Shown here: positions 35,897 through 39,063 of the stretch, piece after piece
Numbering within the stretch: the stretch's first letter is position 1
How the letters are laid out: each line of letters opens with the position of its first letter
Assembly: GCF_000014005.1 (NCBI RefSeq)
Contig: NC_008009.1
Span: forward strand, 2,294,001-2,358,000
Length of the DNA: 64,000 nucleotides
Direction: 5' to 3'
Origin: Candidatus Koribacter versatilis Ellin345
GTDB lineage: Bacteria > Acidobacteriota > Terriglobia > Terriglobales > Acidobacteriaceae
Position numbers and translations under genes: made by a program
The notes under the pieces: model-generated
Database searches by the model: none
Seen by the model: only the letters and a program-made list of their open reading frames with translations
What the model was told of the DNA's origin: nothing

Positions 35897-36364
35897 CTAT
35901 TCCGTAAAAAGCGGTTCTTGCGCGGTTGCGTCCGGCTTGCGCCGCACTTTTTCCCCGATTACGCCGAGGACGGACATCTCGGTCAGCGCGGAGCGGGGGA
36001 CGAAGATGCGCTGGGTGTTGGAGCGGGTGTCGGGTGGGTTTATGAGGAAGCCGTCGGCGGTGACCTGCATGAGGTCGTTGGGCATCAGACCTTCGATCAC
36101 GTCGTTGTCGCGGAATTTGAGGCGGACCCAAAGGCCCTCGGCGCGCGGACGGGTCGTGAACGTTTTGCGGGTTAGATCTTCGGAGTCGCTGAAGTCGCGG
36201 ACGAAGTAGACGCCCTTGATGTCGCGGAGTTCGATCATCACCACGTTGCCGGCCGTGTTCAGAAGCTCGACTTTGCCGTCGGCAATGAAGTGGGTGCCGA
36301 CGAAGCCGCTAAGGCTGTCGCGATCCAGCTTCCGGACGATGACTTTTTTGTGCGTGGAGGCCAT
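35897..36364 (-). CDS. Conserved cytoplasmic protein of unknown function (155 aa)
   Basis: No signal peptide or helix. 'VIVRKLDRDSLSGFVGTHF', then DIKGVYFVRDFSD and a second half 'LWVRLKFRDNDVIEGLMPND', suggest two small beta-barrel (Sm- or PRC-like) units. I recognise the type from acidobacterial genomes as a conserved hypothetical. ATG 36364 chosen; the frame runs further without a ribosome site. Confidence 0.6.
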   Translation of the reverse strand: MASTHKKVIVRKLDRDSLSGFVGTHFIADGKVELLNTAGNVVMIELRDIKGVYFVRDFSDSEDLTRKTFTTRPRAEGLWVRLKFRDNDVIEGLMPNDLMQVTADGFLINPPDTRSNTQRIFVPRSALTEMSVLGVIGEKVRRKPDATAQEPLFTE

Positions 36365-36674
36365 AGTGCTGCGATGCCGGGCACCCCAATAGATTGCGGT
36401 ACTCCGCCGGTTCGATTTTCGCACCTTTTGCGCGCCTTATCTCCTATCAAATCAACTTTGTAGCCAAATCGTTAACGCTGTGGTATCGTGACGCTGTTGC
36501 CGCGTCTTCGGTGCATTTTTACCAAGTAGTGCAGTTTCAACCACTTAGATAGGCAGACCGAGCTCCCCAGGGAGCCAATAAAAGGGAAATTCCCCGACGG
36601 AACCGAGTGTCGTACTGTGCACGGCACCGAATAACGAGGCGTGAGTGTACCGCCCGGCAGGGGACGTAAGATCA
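36365..36674. other. Gene-free divergent region
   Basis: Separates two divergent genes and must hold both promoters. One imperfect inverted repeat, AAGTAGTGCAG...CAACCACTT, is near 36525-36548. No small gene, riboswitch or RNA recognised. Confidence 0.5.
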
Positions 36675-38378
36675 ATGGCTGATTACATTTACGCAATGGA
36701 AACCCGGTTCTCGCCTGATCAGCAGAAGGCTGTGAACCTGATAACCGACGTCGCGCGCGCCCACGACATGAATATTTACCTGACGGGCGGGGCGCTCCGA
36801 GACCTCCTCACCGGTTTCCCCATCCGCGATATCGACCTGACGGTCCAGGGAAACCCCTTTAAGTTACAGAAAGATTTAGAGAAAGCTGGCGCTGCGGTGC
36901 ATGGCACCGAGGAGGACAGCAAGACCCTCCACCTGCTGCTGCCAGGAAATGTCCGCGTGGAAGTCAGTATGTCGCGGTCGGCTACCTACGAGAAGCCAGG
37001 CAAGCCGCCCAAGGTTGAGCCTGCCACGATTAACGAAGACCTCCGCCGCCGTGACTTTACCGTCAACGCGATGGCGCTCTCGCTGAACCCGGGGTCGAAG
37101 GGCTTGCTCGCCGATCCGTTCAACGGCGTCGCGGACATCGAACTCAAAGTCCTGCGGATCCTCCACAACTACGCGTTCTACGAAGAGCCATCGCGGCTTC
37201 TGCGTGCCGTGCGTTTCGCTGCGCGGTTCCACTGGCCGTTGGAAGAGCGGACCCAGGCACGGTACGACGCGGCCAAAGAGAACAGCTACATCGAGTACAT
37301 CAACAAAGACGCGGTTGGCTATGAGTTGGAGCAGGTCGCGCGCGAGGACAATCCGATTGAGATTGTGCGCGCGATGGAGAAGGAAGGCTGGCTGAAGGTA
37401 CTGCATCCGCATTGGACAGTGGCCAAGCTGGAGTCTCCGGAACTGACGCAGTTGCTGAAGGTGCGCCAGCAGATGCTGGACTTCGGCATCAACGTGGATG
37501 CATCGCCGGCGGTCATGTATTTCATGACCAGGAAACTCGGCGACAAGGACATTGCTGACATCCAGAAGCAGATTCCGCGTCGGGACTTCGTGCACTCGTG
37601 GAAGCACCTGGACGATGGCGCCAAAGATTTGGCGAAGCGGTTATCGGGGAAGGAAGCGAACACCGTTTCCGGCACCTGGAAGCTGTTGAGTTCGGCGTCG
37701 CCAGAGGCGTTGCTCTTCCTTGCAATTATTGGGCGCAATGCGTCGGTACAAGACAAGATCAAGAACTTCTTCGGCAAGTGGCGCCAGGTACGCGAGAAGC
37801 TGCCGTTCCCCGAAATGGCGGAACTGCTGATCACGCCGCAGCTGCCCGACTATCCGAAGATTGCGGATGAAGCGTTCCTGATGCTATTGGACGGCAAACT
37901 TCGTTCGCACAATGACATCATCAAGTTCCTGAAGCCGTACGCGCCACCACCGCCACCCCCACCGCCTCCGCCCCCGGCAAAGCGCGGACGCAAGGGGGCA
38001 TTGGCCGCCGCAGCGAAGACTCCGGTTGCCGCTGCGGGTGCGCCAGGCGAACCGGCCAAACGTGGACGAAAGCCGAAGGCGGGAGCCCCGCCAGTTGCCA
38101 CAGCGCCACCGGCAGCTCCGGTTCCGCCTGCGGCAGTTCCGGCAAAAGCAACGGCGCCAGGTCCAGTAAAAAGTGCGCCAGCCAAAGCGGCTCCGGAAGT
38201 GAAGAAAGCGCCAGAGGCCAAAAAGGCCCCTGCGCCCGAGCCAAAGAAAACGGCCAAGCCCGAACCGCCAAAGAAGGCAGTGAAGGTAGCACCGAAGAAG
38301 CCTGTTTCGAAGCCGGCCCCTAAGAAAGCAGCGCCGGCGAAGAAAGTGACGAAGGCTCCAGCGAAGAAAAAGAAGTAA
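36675..38378 (+). CDS. tRNA nucleotidyltransferase with histone-like tail
   Basis: 567 aa. Class II nucleotidyltransferase head: GGALRD (38-43), catalytic DxD at D52/D54, NEDLRRRDFTVNAMAL, and the RLLRAVRFAARF helix; then a helical region to about 415. This adds CCA to tRNA 3' ends or poly(A) to RNA. From residue 424 comes a run of 11 prolines and about 130 residues of Ala/Pro/Lys with two KRGRK AT-hook-like motifs, much like histone H1 tails. ATG 36675 chosen; a GTG at 36645 with GAGG upstream is an alternative. Both tRNAs in this window encode CCA, so its role here is repair rather than maturation of those two. Confidence 0.85.
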   Translation: MADYIYAMETRFSPDQQKAVNLITDVARAHDMNIYLTGGALRDLLTGFPIRDIDLTVQGNPFKLQKDLEKAGAAVHGTEEDSKTLHLLLPGNVRVEVSMSRSATYEKPGKPPKVEPATINEDLRRRDFTVNAMALSLNPGSKGLLADPFNGVADIELKVLRILHNYAFYEEPSRLLRAVRFAARFHWPLEERTQARYDAAKENSYIEYINKDAVGYELEQVAREDNPIEIVRAMEKEGWLKVLHPHWTVAKLESPELTQLLKVRQQMLDFGINVDASPAVMYFMTRKLGDKDIADIQKQIPRRDFVHSWKHLDDGAKDLAKRLSGKEANTVSGTWKLLSSASPEALLFLAIIGRNASVQDKIKNFFGKWRQVREKLPFPEMAELLITPQLPDYPKIADEAFLMLLDGKLRSHNDIIKFLKPYAPPPPPPPPPPPAKRGRKGALAAAAKTPVAAAGAPGEPAKRGRKPKAGAPPVATAPPAAPVPPAAVPAKATAPGPVKSAPAKAAPEVKKAPEAKKAPAPEPKKTAKPEPPKKAVKVAPKKPVSKPAPKKAAPAKKVTKAPAKKKK

Positions 38379-38396
38379 CGTAGCGACAAGCGAAAA

Positions 38397-38424
38397 AAGG
38401 CGTGCTTACGAGCACGCCTTTCGT
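38397..38424 (+). terminator. Intrinsic terminator
   Basis: Stem AAGGCGTGCT / AGCACGCCTT with tetraloop TACG, then TCGTCGTTTG. Starts 18 bases after the nucleotidyltransferase stop. An A-run in front makes it work in reverse too. Confidence 0.8.
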
Positions 38425-38463
38425 CGTTTGCGGTGTCTATAGATTGGCGGGAGGATTTGCAAT

Positions 38464-39063
38464 TTGAGGCGTTGGACTGCATTGCTCGTGGTCGCGGTCT
38501 CGATGCTCGCTTGCGCGCAGGCGCCGGTTGATCGGGATCTGCTCACGAAGAAGCTTGTTGCGGCGGCCTCGGCGCGTGCGCAAGTGCACGTGCGCTACAC
38601 CGGCGAGTACGTGAAGATTGACTATCCCAACGGAGATGTTCCGGCCGATACCGGCGCTTGTACCGACGAGATCATTCGCATCTATCGCGCAGTCGGAATT
38701 GATCTACAAAAACAGGTGCACGAGGACATGGCGAAGCACCTCGCCGACTACCCGATGCACGGCAGACGGACCGACACGAACATCGATCACCGCCGCGTGC
38801 CAAACCTGATGGTGTTCTACTCGAAGTTCGGCGAACGTCTGAGTACCGCGCGCACAGCGGAATATCTGCCGGGCGACATTGTGGCGTGGAACCTCGATGG
38901 CAAGCACACGCACATTGGGATGGTCGTTGATCAGAAGAGCTTGTTCGGGCGCTACAAAGTCCTGCACAACATCGGTGAAGGGCCGCAGATCGAGGATGTG
39001 CTCTTTGACTGGAAGATCATTGGGCACTACCGGTATTGGGGAACGTCGCAGACAACCCAGTGA
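38464..39063 (+). CDS. Secreted DUF1287 protein
   Basis: 199 aa with a short signal peptide (1-19). 'GACTDEIIRIYRAVGIDLQ' (about 61-79), DHRRVPNLMVFYSKFG and LPGDIVAWNL...HIGMVVD are the family core; Cys62 and the His of HTHIG resemble an NlpC/P60-like Cys-His pair, so a cell-wall amidase or related activity is possible. TTG start at 38464 with GAGG 9 bases upstream. Separated from the gene before it by a terminator. Confidence 0.75.
   Translation: MRRWTALLVVAVSMLACAQAPVDRDLLTKKLVAAASARAQVHVRYTGEYVKIDYPNGDVPADTGACTDEIIRIYRAVGIDLQKQVHEDMAKHLADYPMHGRRTDTNIDHRRVPNLMVFYSKFGERLSTARTAEYLPGDIVAWNLDGKHTHIGMVVDQKSLFGRYKVLHNIGEGPQIEDVLFDWKIIGHYRYWGTSQTTQ

Follow-up and report, generated by a model that had tools for sequence, protein, structure and literature searches.

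A class II RNA nucleotidyltransferase with a cationic, predicted disordered tail in Candidatus Koribacter versatilis, and altered active sites among its Terriglobia relatives

Basic C-terminal extensions are known from an RNA nucleotidyltransferase and from bacterial proteins of other kinds. When the CCA-adding enzyme of Ascaris suum lacks its 40-residue Lys/Arg extension, its affinity for armless tRNA is not measurable; grafted onto the human enzyme, the extension gives a dissociation constant of 0.6-0.7 uM (both from excerpts of PMC12013499). In Pseudomonas, DNA is the known or presumed ligand of the AlgP and PhaF tails, and KPAA peptides bind DNA in vitro (excerpts of PMC9239181). Among the nucleotidyltransferases, the EDxxR motif acts as nucleotide template, and bacterial CC-adding enzymes are marked by deletion of the flexible loop that separates motif A from motif B (excerpts of PMC7014341). 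Here, we analysed a gene in a stretch of 64,000 nucleotides from Candidatus Koribacter versatilis Ellin345 (contig NC_008009.1, positions 2,294,001 to 2,358,000 of the forward strand; the window), which encodes a protein with a head of the CCA/poly(A) family followed by a proline hinge and a long cationic tail. Coordinates are positions in the window unless the genome is named.

The gene occupies 36675-38378 on the forward strand, stop codon included, and encodes 567 residues from ATG36675; the frame runs without interruption from GTG36645 or ATG36675 to the stop codon ending at 38378. Because the N terminus is conserved among homologues, with M1 and D3 invariant across 35 homologous sequences, ATG36675 is the most likely start. 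The folded head (residues 1-420; 36675-37934) matches PolyA_pol (PF01743) at 85.7-86.8 bits against a cut-off of 23, and AlphaFold2 gives a predicted local distance difference test (pLDDT) score above 90 across most of residues 1-425. PolyA_pol alone was reported in a Pfam scan of the protein, with no HD, DHH, DHHA1 or CBS domain. Both marks of class II RNA nucleotidyltransferases were identified in the alignment of homologues, i.e. an intact motif A DxD (D52-I-D54; 36828-36836) and motif B RRRDFTVNAM (37044-37073). At the site of the template motif EDxxR, the protein has EEPSR (37182-37196), in which E and R are retained while D is swapped for E.

By sequence, the nearest solved relative is the T. 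maritima CCA-adding enzyme (2.2e-47 over residues 28-371), and the Aquifex A-adding enzyme is also among the nearest. Foldseek gave the T. maritima CCA-adding enzyme 3h38 (1.8e-21) and A. aeolicus 4wby (2.2e-20) as top matches, with TM-scores of 0.35-0.38 by query, the length of which includes the tail, and 0.47-0.55 by target. The best NCBIfam model, that of the A-adding enzyme (NF041569), aligned over the C-terminal half of the model only; its score of 141.5 bits does not reach the curated cut-off of 1440, which is strict in that long relatives from the phylum, at 575-817 bits, also stay below it. We conclude that the window enzyme belongs to the A-adding/T. maritima-type CCA-adding lineage of class II RNA nucleotidyltransferases and has neither an HD domain nor the DHH-CBS half. 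Two other identities were considered and rejected. The signature core of canonical poly(A) polymerase I (PAP I; [LIV][LIV]G[RK][RK]F..., searched over its first six positions, with the criterion taken from excerpts of PMC8208693) was absent from all 109 tail-type and all 21 paralogue-set proteins, and the deletion expected just before motif B in a bacterial CC-adding enzyme was not found in comparison with the T. maritima CCA-adding or Aquifex enzymes.

The head is followed, after PYA, by a hinge of 11 in-frame proline codons (37944-37976), in which all four CCN codons are used, and by a tail of 133 residues (37977-38375). The 144 residues encoded by 37944-38375 include 40 Pro, 39 Ala and 31 Lys, carry a net charge of +30 and contain KRGRK twice (37980-37994 and 38058-38072). 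For residues 431-567, AlphaFold2 gives a pLDDT of about 50 and no secondary structure; the protein thus has the long Lys/Pro/Ala tail with predicted disorder that is looked for in histone H1-like bacterial tails. Tandem Repeats Finder (TRF) detected no tandem KPAA-type repeats in the tail. It reported only the proline run in the tail region, and an artefact of tandemly repeated DNA was rejected. These observations agree with the first-pass annotation, which had described a CCA/poly(A)-family head fused to a strongly basic, H1-like tail, had read 11 prolines followed by about 130 Ala/Pro/Lys residues with two KRGRK motifs at exactly these positions, and had called the tail disordered, as the structure prediction also does.

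We assessed the distribution of the tail in 151 genomes of the class Terriglobia, 148 of which have a match at E <= 0.001, many via the paralogue described below alone, and 120 a strong match (E < 1e-40; counted from the match listing). We read 109 class homologues first and counted 106 after excluding L041, L091 and L094, which are cut or incomplete; 11 more were read later, of which seven are complete and four are cut by contig ends. Families are GTDB family groups without names, coded f1 to f11, with f1 being that of the window, and a tail was called when at least 50 residues had enough Ala, Lys, Pro and Arg. All 29 f1 members, the window protein included, have a proline hinge and a tail of 76-270 residues with a median net charge of +40, which excludes a chance origin of the tail, and a loose expression found an early Arg/Lys patch in 26 of these tails. 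Shorter, Lys-rich tails are present in all 27 f6 members (60-117 residues), in the single f11 member (132 residues) and in part of f4. In f4, the C-terminal stretch is 30-140 residues long and counts as a tail in 8/17 members as well as in four of the six complete ones read later. The 26 f5 members end in 11-30 Pro-rich, near-neutral residues and have no tail by our rule (L053 and L074, whose apparent tails are matches that end early, were counted as untailed), and a later f5 member has 20 such residues; moreover, the tail is absent from f7 (five members), f2 (one) and f10 (one). Overall, 65 of the 106 homologues are tailed, with six changes on a quick tree built under one model, in which 55 of 108 inner branches have a Shimodaira-Hasegawa-like approximate likelihood ratio test (SH-aLRT) value of at least 95. 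In Granulicella aggregans (L160) and in a metagenome-assembled genome (MAG; L159), 239 residues lie beyond the match, with net charges of +48 and -4, respectively. Finally, none of the 21 paralogue-set proteins, one of which (L250) is of a different kind, has a tail of this type.

The tail was thus not missing from relatives, a possibility that the first-pass annotation had raised, and as a compositional feature it is kept throughout f1. Two of its other statements need narrowing. The tail was called unusual on a CCA/poly(A) enzyme, but it is the rule in f1, and E. coli PAP I has a shorter, Arg-rich tail and the Ascaris enzyme its 40-residue Lys/Arg extension (the latter from excerpts of PMC12013499). 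Likewise, the 11-proline run is present in the window protein, but a long homopolymer is not conserved: the hinge reads SPPAPPP in 21/29 f1 members, and at least six consecutive prolines occur in 9/29. The tethering to RNA, ribosomes or nucleoid suggested there is plausible. Taken as a whole, the earlier reading is partly supported.

A frameshift or stop between head and tail had also been considered there. The frame is open throughout the window gene and continues in all 29 f1 members, and close tail pairs have more synonymous than non-synonymous change; a frameshift or read-through was therefore rejected. The ratio of non-synonymous to synonymous substitution rates (dN/dS) in tails was 0.08-0.25 in 10 close, long-tailed pairs and 0.24-0.49 in four pairs whose DxD motif is altered, some with short tails; three further pairs were saturated, and all these values are limited by synonymous saturation and low-complexity alignment. 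In the dN/dS pairs, tails evolve faster than heads. In total, the tails look translated and constrained.

The genome encodes one further PolyA_pol protein, L001, which has an HD domain and is nearest to the Geobacillus CCA-adding enzyme. Because L001 retains in the alignment the flexible loop whose deletion marks CC-adding enzymes (criterion from excerpts of PMC7014341), it is predicted to add CCA unaided. Moreover, CCA is encoded in 30/30 distinct tRNA genes read, out of 44 matches in the genome. With CCA encoded and the loop kept by the HD-type paralogue, the tailed enzyme is probably dispensable for tRNA maturation. Among the 21 paralogue-set proteins read, 20 have DxD and the 21st is L250.

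Altogether, we favour, with a probability of about 0.5, the reading that the tail tethers RNA non-specifically to a 3'-end enzyme that serves 3'-end repair or tailing, or RNA binding. The window enzyme is probably active at RNA 3' ends. The tail would act as a sequence-independent electrostatic tether that captures RNA, either tRNA or other 3' ends, and keeps it near the active site, by analogy with the Ascaris extension. Since tRNA maturation is already provided for by the paralogue together with the encoded CCA, the enzyme may instead repair or tail the 3' ends of RNA, or its role may be RNA binding as such.

The relatives differ widely in the acidic residues of the active site. Motif A departs from DxD in 17 of the 106 class homologues and has a non-acidic residue in 13, which requires seven or more changes on the tree, and in 2/11 of those read later (L078, L080, L082, L086, L093, L096, L103-L105, L107, L109-L111, L307 and L313). 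Position 96 (36960-36962; E96 in the window protein), which we take to supply the third carboxylate, is acidic in 53/106 class homologues; in 64 homologues outside the class, it is D in 62 and E in 2. In f6, the template motif reads NQPxR or similar in 27/27 members (e.g. L034, L037 and L040), each of which also has Ser at position 96. The full acidic set, defined as DxD, an acidic position 96 and [DE][DE]xxR, is retained in 41/106 class homologues and 7/11 of those read later, in contrast to 64/64 outside the class. By family, it is present in 25/29 members of f1, 8/17 of f4, 7/26 of f5, 1/1 of f2, 0/27 of f6, 0/5 of f7 and 0/1 of f11. The outside homologues comprise 49 from a scan with conserved head patterns, which may favour intact heads, and 15 from a search of the phylum that is free of this bias; the 49 include L211, from an Acidobacteria MAG without an established class. 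Among the 64, motif A begins with Glu in three, and all have [ED]DxxR. The window copy retains D52, D54, E96, motif B and EEPSR. By inspection, we found no link between tail and active-site erosion, i.e. f6 is tailed and eroded, f1 is tailed and mostly intact, and f7 is untailed and eroded. We also observed that six Acidobacteria MAG records (L162-L167) have GDAVRD in place of GGAVRD, with ExE at motif A.

Altered motifs are shared by relatives of the same genus (L109/L111, L103/L104, L080/L086 and L027/L029), which argues against sequencing error. Head dN/dS was 0.089, 0.108 and 0.082 in pairs with altered DxD, the other two of five such pairs being saturated, compared with 0.029-0.085 in 12 intact control pairs and 0.101 in a pair with one altered member; for the HD-type paralogue, three of the altered-copy genome pairs gave 0.103, 0.160 and 0.175. 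Constraint on the altered copies is thus slightly below that on intact copies and about that on the paralogue, which argues that they are not decaying pseudogenes. We conclude that the heads are under purifying selection, altered ones included where this was measurable.

For the class as a whole, the boldest history, which we regard as less likely than not, is one in which an A-adding-type enzyme of Terriglobia, without the DHH-CBS half and tailed in some families, would be turning repeatedly into a non-catalytic RNA-binding protein. It would have been freed from tRNA maturation by the intact HD-type CCA enzyme and the encoded CCA; motif A would have lost an acidic residue in at least seven tree changes while the head stayed under strong purifying selection, and the window copy would be a still acid-complete member. 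A related alternative to the RNA tether on an active enzyme, which we consider doubtful, is that in much of Terriglobia the protein is non-catalytic and persists for RNA binding or as a scaffold, the tail forming part of its binding surface and the window copy standing at an earlier, acid-complete stage. The counts of non-acidic motif A and of lost acidic sets would fit such a pseudo-nucleotidyltransferase, as would head constraint in the measurable altered pairs that is comparable to that on the HD-type protein, and the paralogue, whose DxD is intact in 17/17 genomes with an altered tail-type copy. However, the acids are complete in the window protein and in most of f1, motif B (RDF) is still conserved, which fits ongoing nucleotide handling, and constraint in the altered pairs is slightly weaker than in the intact controls. 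Moreover, 49 of the 64 outside controls may be biased to intact heads, and a change from Asp to Asn or Glu is no proof of lost activity in vivo.

Other alternatives concern the tail. It is unlikely that the tail is a tolerated extension of low function, driven by composition and lengthened through slippage in GC-rich DNA; the range of lengths and the poor sequence conservation within one family, the faster evolution of tails and the families that lack them would fit, but tails are present in 29/29 f1 and 27/27 f6 members, nearly all strongly basic, and their dN/dS is below 1, with the caveat of low-complexity alignment. Quite unlikely, too, is a tether to the nucleoid, in which the tail would bind DNA like the KPAA tails of AlgP and PhaF and place the enzyme near nascent RNA: the Lys/Pro/Ala make-up is that of H1-like bacterial tails, whose KPAA peptides bind DNA in vitro (excerpts of PMC9239181), but the head has the fold of an RNA enzyme and TRF found no repeat array beyond the proline run. 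Localization to ribosomes or sites of translation via the tail appears very improbable, given that the similar AKKAPAKK tail of a uL22-like protein of the same genome is a likeness of composition only and a ribosome-specific motif is absent from the tail. Several observations also weigh against our own proposal of an RNA tether on a 3'-end enzyme. The ligand of the tail is not given by its sequence, because Ala/Lys/Pro (AKP) tails are also reported to bind DNA, as for AlgP (excerpts of PMC9239181), and further proteins of the genome carry them; similar Lys-rich stretches on those proteins likewise lower the specificity of the finding. Within f1, sequence and length of the tail are poorly conserved, five of the 29 members (L011, L017, L023, L027 and L029) have acidic blocks of at least four Asp/Glu that separate the hinge from the basic tail, and two tails, both with acidic blocks, are not net positive (charges 0 and -18). 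Because f2, f5, f7 and f10 manage without a tail, the head needs none in general, and the erosion of acidic residues in many relatives argues against 3'-end synthesis as the sole function kept.

Turning to origin, 15 homologues were read from the phylum outside the class, ten with frames of 771-911 residues and five shorter (395-587 residues, some cut by contig ends). Of the four scanned with Pfam, the three long ones have DHH, DHHA1, CBS and PolyA_pol, and the short L296 has PolyA_pol alone; an AKP-rich C terminus was found in none of the 15. Terriglobia either lost the DHH-CBS half or inherited a short form, with basic tails gained afterwards, once or several times. Loss inside Terriglobia is likely and no more than that, because other classes (L296) and Chloroflexi records (e.g. 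L186 and L209) have short forms as well. In other Terriglobia families, up to 56 of 79 flanked loci (L033-L111) have a xerD-like gene, named by eye, immediately upstream and in the same orientation, and this conserved synteny supports one orthologous group. The window locus has no xerD-like gene upstream; it is flanked by DUF6982 upstream and DUF1287 downstream. In many f5 loci, the second upstream gene resembles, by eye, this DUF6982 gene.

The first-pass annotation had expected the 11-proline run to stall ribosomes without elongation factor P (EF-P). Two EF-P-family matches are present in the genome (L300 at 4267914 and L301 at 1358201), so the run need not be a problem; EF-P dependence is conceivable. 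A protein search of the genome with the tail returned the self-match only, which may reflect composition correction, and a DNA pattern for the Lys motif occurs at 12 places. AKP-type or Lys-rich stretches are also found on uL22-like, small acidic-plus-basic and DNA ligase-like proteins, all named by eye. The uL22-like ribosomal protein with the AKKAPAKK tail lies near genome positions 1515645-1515682 (L149/L150). Near genome positions 676911-677020 (L143-L146), a protein has an acidic middle followed by a long AKKAPAKK tail, a layout like the acidic-block tails of some relatives. Right after the stop codon, we spotted by eye an 8-pair GC-rich hairpin (GGCGTGCT-TACG-AGCACGCC; 38399-38418) with a weak T-rich stretch 3' of it; a terminator scan did not list the hairpin. 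No Rfam element was found within 36000-38700 at E <= 1.

Active-site erosion in relatives and the missing DHH-CBS half go beyond the first-pass annotation. What most deserves testing is that well-preserved orthologues have repeatedly lost acids of the active site, the tail alone being moderately interesting. If the proposed history is true, the relatives form a natural series from acid-complete to acid-poor, tailed and untailed, in which one could ask how an essential RNA polymerase fold persists once another protein does its original work, and whether new substrates become accessible to an RNA 3'-end enzyme through a low-complexity cationic tail. Caution in annotation would then be needed too, as some genes labelled CCA tRNA nucleotidyltransferase in Terriglobia may encode proteins that do not add CCA. 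Should the tail part alone hold, the result is a modest extension of the basic tails known on such enzymes. In open-access literature on Acidobacteria tRNA nucleotidyltransferase, CCA-adding and pseudoenzyme, the scope of our search, the matches listed held nothing on the tailed family.

Compared with known systems, the T. maritima CCA-adding enzyme (PDB 3h37, 3h38 and 5hc9) is the closest solved relative both by sequence and by Foldseek; Nrn and CBS domains are native to it (excerpts of PMC8208693), whereas the window protein lacks that half and has a basic tail instead. From the A-adding enzyme (Aquifex 1vfg and 4wby; NF041569), the window protein differs by the absence of the DHH-CBS half, a score far below the cut-off, EEPSR for EDxxR and the added tail. 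E. coli PAP I (PcnB) likewise combines a class II head with a basic C-terminal tail; however, its tail is short and Arg-rich, the similarity of the heads is weak (1.8e-9; 56.6 bits) and the PAP signature core is absent from the tail-type proteins. AlgP and PhaF share the long disordered Lys/Pro/Ala H1-like C-terminal domain (excerpts of PMC9239181), but there the repeats are regular KPAA units and the proteins that carry them are of other kinds. The Ascaris enzyme offers a basic C-terminal extension that binds tRNA (excerpts of PMC12013499); that extension is 40 residues long with RPKKRGKKRR, whereas the window tail comprises 133 AKP-rich residues after 11 prolines, in a genome whose tRNA genes encode CCA.
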